In this document: in pieces, positions 1-57,954 of the stretch
How the letters are laid out: every line of letters starts with the position of its first letter
How positions within the stretch are numbered: position 1 is the first letter of the stretch
DNA from: Marasmius tenuissimus
Taxonomy: Eukaryota > Basidiomycota > Agaricomycetes > Agaricales > Marasmiaceae
Direction of reading: 5' to 3'
Assembly: GCA_029532415.1 (NCBI GenBank)
Contig: JAQOTA010000053.1
Coordinates: 3,906,001 to 3,970,000, forward strand
DNA: 64,000 nt
Translations under genes and position numbers: made by a program
The notes under the pieces: model-generated
What the model saw: the letters and a program-made list of their open reading frames with translations, nothing else
Told to the model about the DNA's origin: nothing
Database searches by the model: none

Positions 1-1023
1 TCGTCAGAGCCTTGGCCGTTCCCAGAACCATTGCCGTTGTTATTGCCCTGACCATTTCCGTTGCCGTTGTTGTTCCCATTGTTCGAGTTTCCTCCATTGT
101 TGTTGCCGTTGTTCCCATTGTTGTTTCCATTATCACCGTTGTTCCCGTTGTCACCGTTGCCGTTCGAGGGCGACCCGTTGACGAAGCTGGCGATCTGAGG
201 ACCGGGGAAGTCGTAGTCTGCATTTGCGTCAAATGCCTGGAGCGGAAATTAATTAACCTTCTACATGTCTGGACAGTGGAGATGAAAACTACTCACATTG
301 ACCTTGATGCCAGAGTCGTTGTCGCTGTAAGCACCTGGGAACGACACGAGCTCATTGTCATTGGGTCTTCCATTCTGGTTTCCGCCGATCTTGAGCTGCG
401 CGCAACCAGGATAGAACTCGGCACCACCTTGCTCTTGAGCAAGATGCAAGCCGATGATCTCGTGTCGAATGAGGTAGTTTCCAGGTGCGAGGGTGCTGGG
501 GATCTTCACATCGGCGACTGCACCGTTCATGAGATCGGCTTGGGCCCACTCCTGGCCTTTGCCTTTCCGTCCAACTTGTTGAATCTTAAACCACTTCGCG
601 TTGGTGTTGTCGACCTGATTGCACGGTTGGTCACCGCAGGAAGCCATGTAAGTCAGCATGGGCCCGGTGTTGTGAGGCCACTGCGGAGCAATGTCAGAAC
701 CTATTATCGGAGCAAAAAGGAAGCAAGTCACGCACGTTACTGTTGTCCCCTCCCCTCCAGTCGAACGAGATGGAGTCTCCGGGGTTGGCATTGCCTATAT
801 CTGAGGCAAGTTTCTCTCCGGGCCCACAGAACATGGCAGGGTTTCCTGCACCCTTCACGGGCGAAACGTCGTTGATTTGTCGAATGATACTATTCTTGGT
901 TTCGCCATTGGGTACGTTTCCGTCGAATTCTTTGCCATTGATATTGATCTTGGCAATGTAACCGTGTGCTGTGACGCAAGTTGTGAAGAGGAGAGGTAGA
1001 AGTATGGCGGATGGGAACATCAT
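1..1023 (-). CDS. AA9 lytic polysaccharide monooxygenase, 3' end cut by window edge
   Basis: Secreted copper enzyme of family AA9 (formerly GH61) that oxidatively cleaves cellulose or related glucans. Two adjacent ATGs (1023 and 1020) open a hydrophobic signal peptide ending in VTA, after which the mature protein begins HGYIAK, so the N-terminal copper-binding His of the histidine brace is in place. The second brace His is in PHNTGPMLTYMA, and the axial Gln/Tyr region reads GGAEFYPGCAQL. Introns: one whose 5' splice site falls inside Asn-Ser (donor gtaacg, acceptor atag near 708), and one at about 236-297. The last exon encodes the usual YDFPGPQ end of the domain and then runs into a linker composed almost only of Asn and Gly (about 10-190) that leaves the window. 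Whether a CBM1 or GPI signal follows cannot be seen. The identification is secure; the C-terminus is unknown. Confidence 0.93.
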
Positions 1024-5324: not shown

Positions 5325-7735
5325 CTAATTTACCTTGTCGAAAAACACCTCAGCAGCCTCTCTGGAGCTGCCGTCCGTAGTGTCTTCAACCAGCGGTCCC
5401 GAGCCCCACAGACCCTCAAAGATTCCGAATCCATCGACGTGCCCGTCCTCACCGCTGTTCGTTACAAATTGAACAGTGATAACACTATCTCCGAAAATCG
5501 AATTCGCCGTCCAGTAAGGTTTGTCCGATTCCCTGTCGTCTACAGGCTGTGGGAATATGGAGTGGTCAAGCCACGGATCACAGATATGAACTGTTGGAAA
5601 CACTCACCCGGCTCTCAAGGGCCGTCAAGTTGAACAAGGGTCCGTCGAAATGCTCCAGCTTCGCATGGGTTGACCAAAACTTGTCCCACTTTGCGATGAG
5701 TGTCGGTATCGTCGAATCGACCGCGCCTGGAAGCACGGTCGGTAACTCGTCAATGACTTCTTGGCAGGACCTCGACTGCTTTGGGCTACCAAGGAGACAC
5801 AACTCCAGGCTGCCGTAGCCTTCATTCATATAGCTGCCGGCCAGCGATTCGTATGGAACGGGTGATGATGTAGGGCTCGAAGGTCGGGGCACGACTTTGG
5901 ATTTGAAGGCGTCAAATGTGATCTGGGCTATGTTTTTGTACCTGGAAAAGTACAAGGATGAGTGGCTCCGGTTGGTTCATGGTGAAGGGGTAAGCTAGGG
6001 AAACAAACCTAGTATTCCAGTCAATAGCAGGGAGCCCGAGCGCGGCGTCGATGATTCGTACTTGATAACCTCGACGAAAGATGATCCGTGGTCGTCATCG
6101 TTCGAGAACACCGCAACACCAAGTTTTGAGTTCGGCAAACGAGTCATTTGAGTCCTGTAGCCTGAAGATACGATAGATATCAGGACCGGTTATGACTTCT
6201 TATGGAATTCTCTGGCCTGTCGTGGCTCCTCCATGCTGATGGTTTTGTCAGTGTTGATGTTCGGCAATGGATAGCAGGCAGTGTGCTTACCTCAATGAGG
6301 TCTATCGGGAACCTGTCAGAGCGAAAAAAGAAGAGGAATCCATTGACTCGACCACTCACTGTGTCCCCTATACGTACTTCTTGCTTGACCGCCACCGTAG
6401 ACGACGGGCGAGAGTTCGGGGAAAACCCTGTTGACTTTGGTGAGCTCAAGTCCAAATTTTCAGCGGTAACCTCGGTAGATGTGAAGACTCACGACACTGG
6501 ATTCTCCACGGTCATTCCAGACGCAATCTTGCGGATAATATCGCCCGGAATTGCCTCCTCTCCAGTTCGAGGGTCCTTACCTTCCAATAACAAAACTTGT
6601 AACCACGTCGCCTAGTGGACGTTCATATGTCAATGTCAGAGTACGAACGCGAAAGGTAAAATTCACAGCATCCCGAGCATTCATGATCACTCCACCGGCT
6701 CCTGAATTGTCTGCACAAGCTATCATCACTTGGGGAACGCTAGGATCGCGGAGTGTCACGCACAGGTTCCGTCTTCACCTTCGTCCAAAAACCATGCCGG
6801 GAACCTAACAACCCGAGGTTTACCTTTTCCAAACAGGTTTTCGCTCTTATTCACGCCCTCCCTTGCCAGTGCATCTGCGAGGTAACCACTGTCCCGCGCC
6901 ACACGGGGGGAGTATGTGGTGGATTCCAGACCAAGGGGGTCGAATATGTGTTCCTTGACGTAGCGCGCAAGTGACGGTCGAGACGGATGTAGCAAAGTGG
7001 GTAGATAAGACAGGATCGTGTACATATTGTTGTTGTATTGCCAGGCCTCTCGGAATTCAGAGGATGGTTTGAGGTGACGAAGCCTTTCGAGCTTGAGAGT
7101 CATTGTCGCAAGACGATTTTGGAAAGATTTGACTGGGCGACTCACAATAGGGACGGTAGTATCATTGTGCGTATACATGAAGTCGTGTCGAGGGAGACCT
7201 GTACGATGGCTCATCACGTCGATGATAGTGCTTTGGGCTGTAGCAATGGGATCTTGCAACTCCCAGAGGCCCCCCAGTATTGACTTGAGCTTCGTGTCCC
7301 ATGTTATAGGCGTCGCCAAGCTCTTGTTAGAGATCAAAAGGCCAGTGGCCAACATTGTGAAGTGCTACAAAGAAGACGACAAATGAGTGGGTCCATGATG
7401 ACGACAGCTTTTAAAATTCCGACTCACTTGGCATTCGAAGCGATACAGACTAGCGAATCCTCTGTCATCCGTTTCCCACCATCCAAATTAATCACAACAC
7501 CGTAGCCCTTCGTTTCAATCCTCCATGTTCCTTCCGGCTCTTCGAGCTTCACGACTGCGATGCTCACTCCACCAGGTGAATTCCATGACGACAATATCCC
7601 TTCAATGAAGTCGTCGATTTCTGGTGTCAAGATTTGGTTGGAACTCGGAGAAAAAAAAATACTTTCTGCAAGTTTTGAGTGTAGAACAAGAGCGGTAGGG
7701 CTAGCAGACCATAAACGTTAAACAATGAGCTGCAT
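5325..7735 (-). pseudogene. Beta-lactamase-like serine hydrolase, copy B, frame-disrupted
   Basis: Tandem paralogue of the gene at 1828-4251 with the same exon order and many identical stretches: SNAK in place of SNSK, MSHRTGLPRHDFMY, WQYNNNMYTILSYL, the 19-nt HGG mini-exon at 6217-6235, and the 3' exons. Three disruptions relative to copy A are visible. The presumed start at 7733-7735 is followed by an in-frame stop after five codons because of one extra base. A run of nine A (7651-7659) shifts frame between the signal-peptide region and LTPEIDD. One base is missing at about 6058: copy A reads ATCCGATACTT where copy B reads ATTCGTACTT, which breaks VIKYRIIDAALG. The catalytic residues are intact, so inactivation looks recent. 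Sequencing error in homopolymers could explain one break but hardly all three. Confidence 0.75.
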
Positions 7736-31000: not shown

Positions 31001-32810
31001 CATGAGACTGTCGAGCACCGGTGTAGACGGGATCACGAGTAGATAAGGAAGGTCGACGTGGCCGTGGCATTCACGATACAGGGTTCTAGCGCGACTATGA
31101 AGATGCTCTCTACTGGATCTCGAGACCCGCCACTCCGCCCTCCTCAGCCACCTGCCATAGCCAACCTTAGAAGACCTCTGAAGATGCTGTGTATGGGGAG
31201 GGAGGGGTCTTATTTACGTGTTGATAGACCGAACTTTATTTATACTCACCTCACTATTCAGTCTATTAGTTTACTATTAGTTGGAGGAGGCGAAATGCGT
31301 ATTAGGTAGATAGATTATTTGCCATCCCATGACATGTGCAGAACTTACAGGTGTACCTCTCGGGCACAAGACCGATGAGGCGTTGAATATACGGAGCGCT
31401 GATGCTTACTGCTATCCCGCTTGGATCGTTGGCAATGGTAAGGCCCGTGCAATTAGAGAGACTTTGAGTTGCTCAACGTTCGAGTGATTGTCTTCCAATA
31501 TCATCATTGCTTCCAATGATTTCGTTTCTGTACGCCACATCGTGCGTTGAACACCGGAACTGAATTCTTCTAGTGGGATGAAGGTCCCAATTGATTACAT
31601 GATGAATTCAGTGACGGTTTTTGTGCTTGGATGAACTTGGAATTGGAAATTGTATTTATATACACGATCGAAGTGAGCGTCGCTGATCAGCGAACACGGA
31701 CGTACGGATGTATAATGCGGGGAATCATGATTTCAAGCAAAAAGGTATAACCACTGTTCAAAAGTTGGTCGGGGTTGACTGCTTCGCAGGCGTAACAAGC
31801 CACGGGTTCCTCGCTCTTCCTCGTTTCGTCCGGGAGGAAAAACCCGACGGAACAAGTTGTGTGTCTAGGGTCCTTCTAGCTTCAGCTTCACCGGGATTCG
31901 CGCGTTCCAGGTAAATCGACGGGATGGAACCCAGAATGATGAGTAGGAGAAGCAGAGAAAGGTTAAAGGCATTCAGTACAACCGGTGGACTTTCCTAAGT
32001 CTTTTGAGAGCTTGTCGGACGACCGCAGACGACCGCGTCGTTCGGAACTATCGCAAGATTGCTGCGAGTTGTCGAGTAGGTCATGAAACGAGGGGATGGA
32101 GGTATCAGGGAGTCAAATCCAAGCGACGACAAGCTGTGTATGGTTGCTCCTTTGAGTAGCGACGATAGATCTGGATTCTGAGGGATAAAACCAGCAAGGT
32201 GGGACCAAGAGGCCGAAATCCGAGTAAATGGTAACGCGTGGCCCAGTCCGAAGAATCAGAGCATTCCCTCAAGGTAACATTGAGAGGTTACGTAACGATA
32301 CGGAATGAGGAAATGTTGCCGGAAGGGGGCGTACACTGCTGTTGTGGGGAAAGGATGTCCGCATAAATGCCAGCGCCGAAGGTTGGCGCACCGCTGACTG
32401 GTTTGTCCGAGTTGAGCGCACTGACATAAGTATGAAGATAGGACCTTGAGCAGAGCGAGGCAGGGAGCATGCGCAATGACTCGGAGAGCGAACAGGTTGA
32501 GCGACTGGGAAAGGGGGAGGGTCCACCCGATGGAGAGGTCGGCTGTGTTTATTTTTTATTTTATTTTTTTTAGTATTTTTTTGTTTGTCCGTGACATATA
32601 TAATCACAAAAACAAACTATCACAGGTTCCGCGAGATCGAGTGTTCCCGCAAGATTTCAGATCAAAAAGAAATCCCTAATAATAACAACGCCAACTCTGG
32701 TCAACTCAGGTCTTAACCCAAGTCAATAACCCTCCCGAACAGTGCCACTCAAAAAGTCTCAGCCCCGTGCCGATCATCCCGCTCGTTCCCCTCTTACTGT
32801 CATCTCCTTC
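28021..32810. other. 4.8-kb gene-poor region
   Basis: No gene could be supported. A small open frame at 28678 (MSSRRPDLGIISNLIADGG) follows a promoter-like stretch with a TATATAG element near 28540, but it stops after about 22 codons unless spliced. Frames at 29162-29530, 30372-30791 and 27842-28267 lack motifs; the last is antisense to the start of the uridine phosphorylase gene. A T-rich run (32546-32583) lies about 250 nt upstream of the HMG-box gene. Confidence 0.45.
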
Positions 32811-34372
32811 ATGGATCCTTATTCTTCATCCAGGAATTCAGTTCCAAGCAATACCAGTAACAGCGACGAACGCTCTTCACATTCCCCCTCAGACGACGGC
32901 AGCAACGGTTACCCAATATATAATGATGTTAGTAAGGCTGGCGACAACGACTTGGATGGTGAGTTCTTGTTTTTTATGTCTCAAAGTATGACACGACCGT
33001 GTTCATTCTTCAATGCTTCTGTGTTAGACGACGCGAGTGGTTCTTCGTTGACCGCGCAAACCCTCAATGCGGATGGCACGCCAAAGAGGCCGATGAACGC
33101 CTTCATGATATTCGCACGTCGACGGCGGCCACAGGTGTCTTCAGAAAATACCTCAATGCGCACCGGTGAAATCAGCAAGATTCTCAGTCGGGAATGGAAT
33201 GCCATGCCTCCAGTCAGTGTCACTCGAAAGTCTGTGTTTTTGACAGTTTCTCATATACATTCTTTCAGTCCGAGAAACAATTCTATCTCGATCAGGCGAA
33301 ACAACTAAAAGACACGTTCAACTCTAAATACCCCGACTACGTATACAGGCGTCGGCCCAATAATTCACGAAAACGACGAAGGACAGACCATTCCCTCAGC
33401 CACAACCCCCCTTCAGCGGGACACAATGGTTCTCTTGATGGGGGGGATACTTTACACGGCACTGATCTCGGAGAATCGTCGCCCTCGGAGGGTCATGGTG
33501 TTCATGGTCATGTCAACGATTCCTCTTCAGCGCCTTATCATCTACGAATGCCTCCGCTAGGTCCTCATGACACGTCACAAAAGTACGGAGGGAGCGCCGG
33601 TGTCCACCATGGTTTGCCGTCTAGGCTTCCCTTTGCGGGGTCGCAATCCAGTGGTTCCCCCTTCCCCGACTTGGGTCCTTCCTTCCGGGGCTCAGACCAT
33701 CGTTTGCCTTTCTTGCCGCCGAACGGTCATGAGTCTCACAGATCCAACACTCTTCCGTCCCCTCGCTCATCACATCTAAACCCCATTTTACCACCCTCTC
33801 AAAATCATCTATACGGAAACGGTGCGAACGGCCACAGCCAGTGGGATTCTGGAAGGGAAAGGTCCAGCTGGTCAACGACGAACGATCGCTCAACCACAAG
33901 GACGTCATTCTCCTCAAGCTCGTCCGCAACACCACCGCTACCCGGGAATAGCTGGTCCCCGCCGCCTACCGCGTCTTCCGCGACTCAGGGTTCCGCTGCG
34001 AACTCCAGCACGAATTCCAGTGACTTTCCTTTCCCCACCTTGAACTCGCCTTTCTATCCCTCTTCTGGATCTCACCCGCCGTCCTCTACCCAGCCGTTCA
34101 CCTCCTCCCCCACTCAGTCTTCCTCTCATCTTCCTTCGGAGTCGTCTTCTGACCGTCACAGCAACTATCAACCTCATCACCGCAATTCCTACCCGTCATC
34201 TAGCCCCAGGGACTCGCACTCTCAGTCTTTCCAACGCGGGGACCTTCCGCGGGCCTTACCGGCGATAGGCTCAATCACCAGCTCATTCGGGGGAGGTGGT
34301 TCGGGTGTGAGCGATCCTTTGGGTGACTTCAGCTCCTGGCGGCCTCCTAGCGGCCATGGGATAGGACACTGA
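32811..34372 (+). CDS. HMG-box transcription factor (MATA/Sox-type box)
   Basis: Sequence-specific DNA-binding regulator. First ATG at 32811 (MDPYSSSRNSVPSN). Exons 32811-32958, 33028-33212 and 33269-34372; both introns have GT-AG ends and keep the box in frame. The HMG box starts TPKRPMNAFMIFARRRRPQV, continues MRTGEISKILSREWNAMPPS across intron 2, then EKQFYLDQAKQLKDTFNSKY and YVYRRRPNNSRKRRR, a basic tail and likely nuclear localisation signal. The remaining roughly 340 residues are low-complexity, rich in Ser, Pro, His and Gly, ending PPSGHGIGH, typical of a disordered activation region. Single-box fungal proteins of this kind regulate mating and fruiting, but no orthologue assignment is made. 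It is not near any pheromone or pheromone-receptor gene of the classical type in this window. Confidence 0.9.
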
Positions 34373-54300: not shown

Positions 54301-55416
54301 CAGAGACCACCCTCCCGGGCGGGTGGTCCATGTGGTCGGTGGCTGAACGAGATTCACCCTGATTCACCTGGATCACTCAAAAGTCGCTCACAGCTTTTAT
54401 TCAATAGCCGATTCAGGCGTGCAAATGGTGAACGGTTCGATCGGTAGTCACACTAACCCAACTAGCGTCAAGCTTTCAAACTCGCGAGCATACTTTCTGT
54501 CCTGTCATATCGAAGAATCTTCGCCAGCTGACCTTGGACCTGTCTACCGCGGTCCGATGATAGCAGCATGATAGCCATCTCCGTGTGCAAGAACTATTCA
54601 TGAATGTCTGGGACGATTCTGATGTAAGTCCGCCAAGCCTACGTGGGCAGACTGACTTACATCCAAGGAACACCAAGGCACAAACATTCTAAACCTCCTG
54701 TCGGACGCAATCGCTATGAGTCGGTAAAGGAGACTTCAAGGTCGCTAAGGACATATTTCAGGATCGAAAAAGGCACGCAGGGGTTATGTGTACTTCTCCC
54801 GCCGGTGAGTGAATGTCTCATGTTCTGGAAGGAACTCAACAAACGGGACTAGATGATGACGACCTGGACCGGTACCACCCAACGCCGTTTGGGGTTATAC
54901 CTGGTTATACCCTGTTATACCTTCCCACATTGTGCGAAAACTCGCAAGCATTGGACTCCGGAAGACTGGAAAGCGGGGACTACAGTACGTTGAACCGGGC
55001 GGAATTTGCCCTTGCAACGAAAGCTGTACAGATATAAATAACATTAATCCCCGAAACGAGGGTACTCACAACGTGCTGAATGTATCGAGCAACGCGAAAA
55101 CGTCAACACTATTCACACGTTTGCCGTACAGACTCAAAGCAGCCAATCTGTAGTCAAGTCGAGGCGGATGCCAAAAATTCAGAATCCTAGCCAGGCACAA
55201 ATAGGTCGGATGAATCTTGAAGCTGATAAATTCAATTCCCACCCAAAAACTCTCGGCGGCTAAGAGCTTTTTCCAGGGCACCTTCCTTTTTTAGATATGC
55301 CTGGCTTGGCCTGGCAGGTCTGGCAAAGGTCCATGATTTCATATAAAGCGGCATCGGGAGTGTGCCTGTTACCAACCTCATTGCCCCCCTCCCTCGACCA
55401 TTCCCCTTGTCTCCCA
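51318..55416. other. 4.1-kb region with no secure gene
   Basis: A minus-strand frame at 52255-52653 contains a strongly hydrophobic segment (ITAALFSFGVVIVWLPLLLL), and the frame at 52122-52454 could be its next exon. Another hydrophobic minus-strand stretch lies near 51625-52092. Together these may be exons of a membrane protein, but I could not chain them or name a family. Plus-strand frames at 52872-53263 and 53347-53769 show no motifs. The last 150 nt form the promoter of the repeat-peptide gene. Confidence 0.35.
55342..55347 (+). promoter_or_regulatory. TATA box and pyrimidine-rich leader of the repeat-peptide gene
   Basis: TATAAA 70 nt upstream of the ATG at 55417. The leader just before the ATG (55380-55415) is almost entirely C and T, as in strongly expressed filamentous-fungal genes. 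This supports the annotated start and suggests high expression. Confidence 0.6.
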
Positions 55417-56144
55417 ATGCTCCTCAATTCGTGTTTTGTCGTCCTTGCTCTGTCTTTGGCGGCTTTTGCTGCCCCGATCGTGAGTCTCATGTTGTTTCTG
55501 TGCACACACCCTTTCCTAACACAGCGTTACAGGATAACAGCGCAGTGGTCGTTGCCAGGGCGGTCGAAATTGCGAGAGATGAAGTAGAAGTGAGTTGCAG
55601 AGTTCGAAATAATGGGCAAAGCGTTCTGACGACTCTGCTAGGCTCGAGAACCAGGACCTCCCTTCACCGCGAGCTGGAAAAGGAAGGCCGCTCTCGATGT
55701 GCGTAGCTTCATGTTTTTTGACCCGACTTCGCACTAACGTCACCACCCTCTTAGGCGAGATCGTTGAGCGACTCAAAACGCGAGCCTGAGCCTGGTTCAC
55801 CACACGCTGTTACCTGGCGAGAAGCGGAACCCGAAGCAGCACCAGCACCACCTCATGCAGTTACCTGGAGAAAGCGTGAAGCCGAAGCCGAGCCAGGACC
55901 TCCTCACGCTGTCACCTGGAAAAAGCGGGAAGCAGAGGCAGAGGCAGCGCCCCCTCACGCAGTTACCTGGAAGCGAGAGGCAGAGGCAGCGCCTCCCCAT
56001 GCAGTCACCTGGAAACGAGAGGCGGAAGCAGCACCTCCTCACGCAGTCACATGGAAACGAGAGGCAGAGGCGGCACCACCTCACGCAGTTACCTGGAAGA
56101 AACGTGAAGCAGAGCCCGTAGGACCCCATCAGGTTACCTGGTAA
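55417..56144 (+). CDS. Kex2-processed repeat-peptide precursor (alpha-factor-like architecture)
   Basis: Predicted 188-residue secreted precursor of short peptides. Exons 55417-55479, 55533-55589, 55642-55698 and 55755-56144; all three introns are phase 0 with GT-AG ends. Exon 1 is a signal peptide (MLLNSCFVVLALSLAAFAAPI). Exon 2 is a 19-residue pro-segment. Exon 3 holds a degenerate unit (PGPPFTASW followed by KR). Exon 4 holds eight units: seven end in PHAVTW, and the last, PHQVTW, is the C-terminus. Most units are followed by KR, KKR or RKR (Kex2-type sites) and then EAEA, EAE or EAEAEA (trimmed by Ste13-type dipeptidyl aminopeptidase in yeast). The first full unit is followed by a single Arg (WREAEPEA). 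This is the layout of Saccharomyces alpha-factor precursors and of fungal KEP proteins. There is no C-terminal CaaX, unlike known basidiomycete pheromones. Function of the peptide unknown; signalling peptide or RiPP precursor are the main options. Confidence 0.85.
55800..56141 (+). repeat. Eight-unit coding repeat (PHAVTW units)
   Basis: PHAVTW-type hexapeptides begin at 55800, 55851, 55902, 55953, 55995, 56037, 56079 and 56124. The period is 51 bp for the first three steps, 42 bp for the next three and 45 bp for the last. The 9-bp difference is one extra spacer dipeptide plus one basic residue. Codons for the invariant residues differ between units (CAC/CAT, GCT/GCA, GTT/GTC, ACC/ACA). Confidence 0.92.
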
Positions 56145-57954
56145 CCTCCGCCACCCTCCGCCTTTTCTGTTCTCTCTTCTCACGACCGCTGTTATTCGCT
56201 GTATCATACGGGTTCTCATTTCGGTGAACCTTCCCCTCCTTTGGCCTGTCTTTCTCGCTGCGTAGTTGCGGAAGAATGTACTCTTCGTGGAGGTTATCGG
56301 GTTCAGGATGTCGTATTTTTCTTGCTGATCGAGTCAATTCTCTGTACCCGCTGTTACGTTGGACACTTCACTCCTTTCTCTCATCGATATTGTTATCGCT
56401 GTATATTCGCTGTCATAGTAGTTTCTTGTGGGGTTTTTTCACAAATTAATGGCAATCTCGCACTGCGAGAATTTTGGGACTTAGATCTCCAAATGATCGA
56501 TGTTGGTGCGTCTGCACTTGGTTGTGGAACTTCCGGGCCTCAATGGGTCTCACTGCTTTCCCGGTTTCAAAGGGGTTGGGAACCGATCGACTTGTCGGGC
56601 TTGGTCTGTGACTGTCCATGACAGGACAGTCAACAGGTGCATGCAACATTACATGTAGCCTCCGATGTTCTACGGGCTTATACGTCCCGTATACATACAA
56701 TAAGGTGATCTTCATTCTTAATCGGCACGTTGGCTCACGTTGGCCTGACGGATAGGCAACTATACTGCAACTCGCTTGTACCCACCGCGTACCTAGGAAA
56801 CGTCGTCCGCCGGAGAGCTTGGATGCCGGCAAGAAGTCTCGTCAACCGAAGGCAAAGAATGTCAAGAGGTCTGAGGTATATTCACTGCCTTTCCAGAGTC
56901 GACTGGGCTCAGGTTATCGGAGAACCCAAGCGGATCACTGTGTACTTGCCTCCAGACTGAGCTACCATGGTTTCTTGTATACTCGGATTACTCGGGCGTG
57001 AAAAATCACCCCCCGTTAGCAGCTACTGTGTCAATGGCAATATTTAACGTTGTGAATGCCCGTGCATCCATATCGACCCTTGTATCAACCTATTCGCGAA
57101 TCTCGGTCCCGACCGAGTCGAAAGAGATGAACGACCTCGCCAATCGTGATTCGAATTCGCGCGGAGGGCAAATCTCCCCAAGGTACGAGACTGCGAAAGG
57201 ATCGCAACTTCTTATCGATGGACAATAGAAATGAGGAAACGACCCACTTTTCTGAGCTTGGACCGAAGATTCATTGTATTCGGCCGTTTTGTAGCACGTC
57301 CATGTAAGTACTTCAAGTCCACCTCGCGTCCCGGTTGACGGGAGACTGGGCTGAAGACACCATCATGCGCTACTACGCGTCAAAGTAGAGGCTTGAGAAG
57401 CCCAAGTGTTTCGGTCCCGGATACACAAGTTCCTGGGACGAGCAGACGCCCTACGTCGCGTAGATCTGGGACCGGCTCCAACAGGTGCGGAGGTCCATCA
57501 GGGCTTAAGGACCTCCAGGAACAGGTACGATAGTACGATGACCCTTTGCAGGTTTTTGGCGGTCTTGAAGTGACCTCTAATGTACGAGAAGTAGTAGTGA
57601 TCCCCGTAGCCCTGGCATACAGGCTCAAAGACATGGTGGATCGATTAAGGAAGAGTTTTGTCTGACTGTTCACTCTACAGGACAGTTTCGTGAATCCAAA
57701 TACTTCGTAAAGAAAGACAGAAAAAGACGGACTAGTATGGCCGCTTTCCACATACAGCCAGTCCTACGAGGACCGGAGATAGAAACGCCGATAGTCTGGG
57801 ACTGAAGGTGAAAACTTGAACTTGGATTGCGTTCAAACTTCAAACGGCCGGCAAAGTCCGAGCGAGATTCCCAAGGGTATACAAAGGCCAAAAATACATT
57901 CTAATGGTCACTTATACACAAAAGCACCCTCAAACATAGGCACTATTTTTGCCA
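56145..57954. other. Convergent intergenic region between the peptide precursor and DUF6534 genes
   Basis: Contains the precursor's 3' UTR. Frames at 56241-56621, 56446-56832 and 57380-57751 lack recognisable motifs. No DUF3328-like oxidase, methyltransferase or peptidase that would modify the peptide was seen here. Confidence 0.45.

Follow-up and report, generated by a model that had tools for sequence, protein, structure and literature searches.

Among the systems described so far, the closest are the alpha-factor precursors of ascomycetes, which combine a signal peptide, Kex2 sites, Ste13 dipeptides and tandem cores, and the fungal KEX2-processed repeat proteins (KEPs), in which similar short repeats lie between KEX2 sites (KR, RR or KK). 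For the Basidiomycota, Le Marquer (2019, PMC6339444) described alpha-pheromone-like KEPs of the STE13 type and speculated on cognate receptors, while the survey of Umemura (2020, PMC7329392) reported 1680 KEPs in 317 basidiomycete strains. Vogt et al. (2022, PMC9769878) noted that STE13 motifs together with a C-terminal Trp occur in many KEPs of basidiomycetes, and in four agaricomycetes they found KEP peptides ending in Trp by MS. According to the same report, KEP 490115 of Coprinopsis cinerea yielded QYKAPSW and QMRPPSW when processed in Pichia (MS), GPPAPSW, which belongs to KEP 447393, was detected in the C. cinerea culture supernatant, and peptides of the Pleurotus KEPs 1091723 and 1439342 (SGVAADW) and of the Lentinula KEP 2599 (SGTGEASAADW) were detected in fruiting bodies (PMC9769878).

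The gene studied here is located at 55417-56144 on the plus strand of the window, i.e., the whole 64,000-nucleotide stretch of Marasmius tenuissimus DNA that was analysed. It runs from an ATG at 55417 to a stop codon ending at 56144, and a putative TATAAA-like element was read in the sequence some 70 nt ahead of this ATG (55342..55347, plus strand). According to a four-exon model with predicted splice sites, the spliced CDS comprises 567 nt including the stop and encodes 188 amino acids; the three introns (53, 52 and 56 nt) are all in phase 0 and have GT..AG borders. Exon 1 (55417..55479) encodes a signal-peptide-like N-terminus, MLLNSCFVVLALSLAAFAAPI, in which a hydrophobic stretch and an AFA/AP-like site can be read, cleavage being likely after AFA. 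Exon 2 (55533..55589) encodes the pro-region DNSAVVVARAVEIARDEVE, exon 3 (55642..55698) encodes AREPGPPFTASWKRKAALD with the first peptide unit, and exon 4 (55755..56144) contains seven PHAVTW units, the last unit PHQVTW and the stop codon. Reading of the sequence confirmed the coordinates and the layout that the initial annotation had given here.

Nine units fit the pattern P[HFY]xx[ST]W, namely PFTASW in exon 3 followed by seven PHAVTW and the terminal PHQVTW in exon 4, in agreement with the original count of eight units and a divergent one; Tandem Repeats Finder also detected this array, assigning it periods of 51 and 42 nt. A dibasic site (KR, KKR or RKR) precedes seven of the nine units, as in KEPs, and the earlier wording that such sites "mostly" separate the units is accurate. 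In the other two cases there is a single Arg: PFTASW is preceded by EAR and the second PHAVTW by TWR. When C. cinerea KEPs were produced in Pichia, three of them were reported to give products consistent with a cut after a single Arg (Vogt et al. 2022, PMC9769878). The spacers consist mostly of Glu-Ala and Glu-Pro, and the distance between basic site and core hexamer, 4 to 10 residues, is even in 9/9 units. When eight residues are counted back from each Trp, a length picked after inspection of the data, the remainder is made up of whole dipeptides, and 21/21 of them have Ala or Pro as their second residue, all in register, which none of 20,000 shuffles equalled; the distinct spacers alone gave 17/17, also with 0/20,000. 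STE13-type basidiomycete KEPs are marked by repeats of XA/XP dipeptides that immediately follow the KEX2 site, and such dipeptides are present here. The alpha-factor/KEP layout proposed in the initial annotation is supported.

Along the plus strand, the predicted mature octapeptides are GPPFTASW (55654..55677), GSPHAVTW (55794..55817), APPHAVTW (55845..55868, with the single Arg upstream), GPPHAVTW (55896..55919), four more copies of APPHAVTW (55947..55970, 55989..56012, 56031..56054 and 56073..56096) and VGPHQVTW (56118..56141), whose last residue abuts the stop codon. Each precursor is predicted to yield five APPHAVTW and one each of GPPHAVTW, GSPHAVTW, VGPHQVTW and GPPFTASW. The C-terminal Trp and the choice of APPHAVTW as the predicted main product (five of nine) are those named originally.

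Compared with the C. cinerea KEPs 447393 and 490115, the precursor is likewise an agaricomycete KEP with Trp-ending cores and shares a GPP..SW pattern with 447393 and STE13 motifs with 490115, but their cores have seven residues and a different sequence, as judged from the published descriptions, and GPPAPSW, unlike the units here, comes from a non-repetitive C-terminus (PMC9769878). The Pleurotus and Lentinula KEPs also have repeats and Trp-ending cores, and those of Pleurotus have STE13 motifs as here, but their cores are of the -AADW type as opposed to PP..[ST]W (PMC9769878). An alpha-factor layout in a basidiomycete, which the initial annotation implied to be new, has already been published (PMC6339444, PMC9769878). 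What is apparently new is the core, as far as the literature search reaches: six core strings of the family were absent from the open PMC literature, in line with the initial annotation, which did not recognise the core from any described peptide, with supplements and most subscription papers, which may list the homologue described below or its close relatives, lying outside that scope. Judged on its sequence, the locus holds a real, well-formed precursor with an apparently undescribed core and of a kind already published; the original observation is confirmed and its interpretation supported in part.

The coding character of the array was assessed from its codons. The seven PHAVTW copies contain 10 departures from consensus in six distinct states, all synonymous and at third positions, and 0/20,000 simulations under each of three transition biases gave such a synonymous-only pattern, a figure that overstates independence because the copies descend from duplications. 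The commonest hexapeptide occurs seven times, always within 166 codons of the first copy; among 50 first-order Markov windows the maximum hexapeptide recurrence was 1 in 18 windows, 2 in 31 and 3 in one. Opposite the repeat exon, a stop-free antisense frame of 178 residues extends over 55797-56333 (minus strand) and is probably a by-product of the codon composition of the repeat.

The protein searches yielded a sole clear homologue, the hypothetical protein V5O48_015891 (P0001) of Marasmius crinis-equi, 131 aa long; it is itself a predicted protein, and conservation rests on this one sequence. In two of the searches scoring was limited to the 7,993 and 7,991 candidates with the most shared words, and five candidates entered the third; further relatives may thus have escaped detection. 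The two proteins are 59% identical in the alignment, which has no gap in the pro-region of exon 2 or where this exon meets exons 1 and 3, though the residues immediately at the exon 1/2 junction differ; the exon 3/4 junction falls at an alignment gap and is less supported. Both have a similar signal-peptide-like start and pro-region, AREPGPPFTASWKR of exon 3, including GPPFTASW, is identical, and PHQVTW forms the C-terminus in both. However, the M. crinis-equi protein has five units against nine, with PYVVSW twice and PFEASW in the middle and no PHAVTW. Its dipeptide register is also weaker (6/9, with 1,124 of 20,000 shuffles as good, against 21/21), and one of its five spacers, ahead of one unit, is odd-length and acidic. 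The PFTASW unit, first labelled degenerate, is a conserved one because it is identical together with its flanks in M. crinis-equi. The middle array appears to have turned over while the edge units were kept, which for two species is a pattern to test and not a law. Outside the genus, a weak match (E 3.4e-4) with other cores was obtained to a protein of the ascomycete Zasmidium cellare (P0002), a KEP-like precursor with many KYELW/KFELW units, EA/DA spacers and Trp at the end of most units.

The genome assembly comprises 71 Mb in 70 contigs, with the gene on contig C10, and counts of profile matches given below are lower bounds. Protein searches of the genome with the repeat and with the M. crinis-equi protein matched this locus alone (three matches each), and the three matches to the pattern W-K-R-E-A-E-A are all at the repeat locus. 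The broader pattern K-R-[DE]-[AP]-[DE]-[AP], which KEPs with other spacers escape, has 63 genome matches against 44 when read backwards as a control; seven lie within about 340 bp at the array, and no other two are less than 40 kb apart. A single deletion might therefore eliminate all signalling of this kind. Two kexins, both with S8 and P domains, are encoded on C21, by genes that share a strand and are separated by about 22 kb (C21 47655-69596; L023 and L024); three kex2 genes were reported for C. cinerea (PMC9769878). DPPIV_N matches were found at three places at least, two on C19 and one on C18, and the one examined (L025) also carries Peptidase_S9. The two loci on C19 (L025 at 1395362 and L026 at 1406048) are separated by about 10.7 kb; their scores are nearly equal and their open frames identical in length, which probably reflects either recent duplication or an artefact of the assembly.

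We consider it probable that the gene encodes an alpha-pheromone-like KEP that is matured to secreted linear octapeptides. The signal peptide would bring the precursor into the ER, and a kexin would then cut after KR, KKR or RKR, probably also at the two single Arg sites, with two kexin genes available in the genome. A Kex1-type carboxypeptidase would strip the trailing basic residues and leave the C-terminal Trp. A DPP-IV/Ste13-type enzyme is predicted to take off the EA, EP and AP dipeptides, consistent with the register of the spacers. A Pro after the scissile bond (X-Pro-Pro) blocks cleavage of the DPP-IV/Ste13 type, and trimming would stop there or once the second residue of the next dipeptide is neither Ala nor Pro. 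The peptides would leave the cell linear and unmodified, probably to serve as an extracellular signal, and might be read by a surface receptor, this last step being speculative. Points against this reading are the weaker dipeptide register of the M. crinis-equi protein and the two units that lack an upstream dibasic site. The processing is well supported by the anatomy of the precursor; a signalling role is what we infer.

Self-signalling, in which the producer responds to its own peptides, is a tentative proposal, and it is weakened by the six C. cinerea kep knockouts reported to be without detectable phenotype (PMC9769878). The same peptides could instead be made as described and target other organisms, i.e., a competitor, host or microbe, which we regard as rather unlikely but worth weighing. 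An arms race could produce the kind of turnover seen in the middle array, which differs between the two species although the units on either side of it are retained; octapeptides without Lys or Arg, on the other hand, are unlike membrane-active peptides. In favour of other targets, the knockouts lacked a phenotype in axenic culture and their authors favour biotic interaction; against them, the synthetic KEP peptides assayed in the same study were reported to be inactive towards all five bacterial strains (PMC9769878).

The surroundings of the gene bear on a further explanation, that it gives rise to a modified, cyclic dikaritin-type RiPP crosslinked by UstYa-like oxidases. A Pfam scan of ten window frames matched five at E up to 0.01, with no hint of a dedicated cluster among these five; they include a kinase frame at about 49 kb and, about 6.8 kb downstream of the gene, a P450 frame at 62.9-63.9 kb, a point in favour of this explanation. 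Oxidoreductase-like (46 kb) and N-acetyltransferase-like (61.8 kb) frames are both below the Pfam cut-off, and an HMG-box transcription factor frame is located at 32730-33305 (plus strand). At least 26 exon-level UstYa (DUF3328) matches occur in the genome, but none of the 26 listed is on C10, the contig of the precursor, and thus none in the same cluster. Ustiloxin-type cores contain Tyr, whereas the cores here do not; PYVVSW of the homologue does. Dikaritin precursors share the same layout (PMC9769878), and a DUF3328 gene was reported near 17/76 (22%) of the KEPs with homology to six presumed STE13-type pheromones of basidiomycetes, which leaves a modified product conceivable for this class; among basidiomycete KEPs overall, however, just 103/1680 have such a neighbour (PMC7329392), and ascomycete precursors of toxic cyclic peptides are described as lacking the STE13 signature (PMC6339444). 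We therefore judge this explanation very unlikely, and the RiPP-type modification suggested originally as one option found no nearby support.

Further features were noted at the other end of the window. An AA9 lytic polysaccharide monooxygenase is encoded at 264-794 (minus strand) and fits a plant-litter or wood lifestyle. Two similar stretches at 1828-2502 and 5578-7364 (minus strand), whose frames are alike by eye, suggest a tandem duplication; one of the frames, 6759-7364, gave a match to Beta-lactamase in Pfam.

The close match of the layout to ascomycete alpha-factor could also indicate the precursor of a mating pheromone acting in place of the canonical system or alongside it, but this is highly improbable, as the genome carries the usual basidiomycete machinery. 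STE3 has at least 26 exon-level matches, 16 of them on C37, and among the matches listed the nearest on C10 is about 3 Mb from the gene; one match to the CaaX pheromone family is listed, on C26. Together with the Marasmius homologue, these genes agree with the basidiomycete host assumed in the initial annotation. The STE2 search of the genome gave no match, and the control genomes likewise gave none. The precursor is unlike alpha-factor in its core, which is unrelated, and the Pfam alpha-factor model gave no match to it at E up to 1; with 188 aa and an end at PHQVTW-stop, it also differs from basidiomycete pheromones, which have a short precursor with a C-terminal CaaX. Finally, although slippage can generate tandem repeats and the antisense strand at 55797-56333 is also open, a chance or decaying repeat without a product is hardly credible in view of the synonymous-only variation, the dipeptide register, the phase-0 introns and the homologue in a second species.

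Why mushrooms retain alpha-factor-style precursors despite having CaaX lipopeptide mating pheromones is a question raised in both earlier accounts (PMC6339444, PMC9769878). For an alpha-pheromone-like KEP, the locus defines exact peptides for synthesis (APPHAVTW, GPPHAVTW, GSPHAVTW, VGPHQVTW and GPPFTASW) and offers a testable contrast between two units common to two species and a turned-over middle array. It is conceivable, though we think it improbable, that Marasmius and its allies possess a second peptide channel separate from mating, in which shared edge peptides and a species-specific middle "address" peptide are read by a receptor. If so, the gene would release GPPFTASW and the PHQVTW end peptide, both conserved, flanking an array homogenised independently in each lineage, and each species would broadcast its own amplified peptide, APPHAVTW here and [AG]PPYVVSW in M. 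crinis-equi, beside the shared one.
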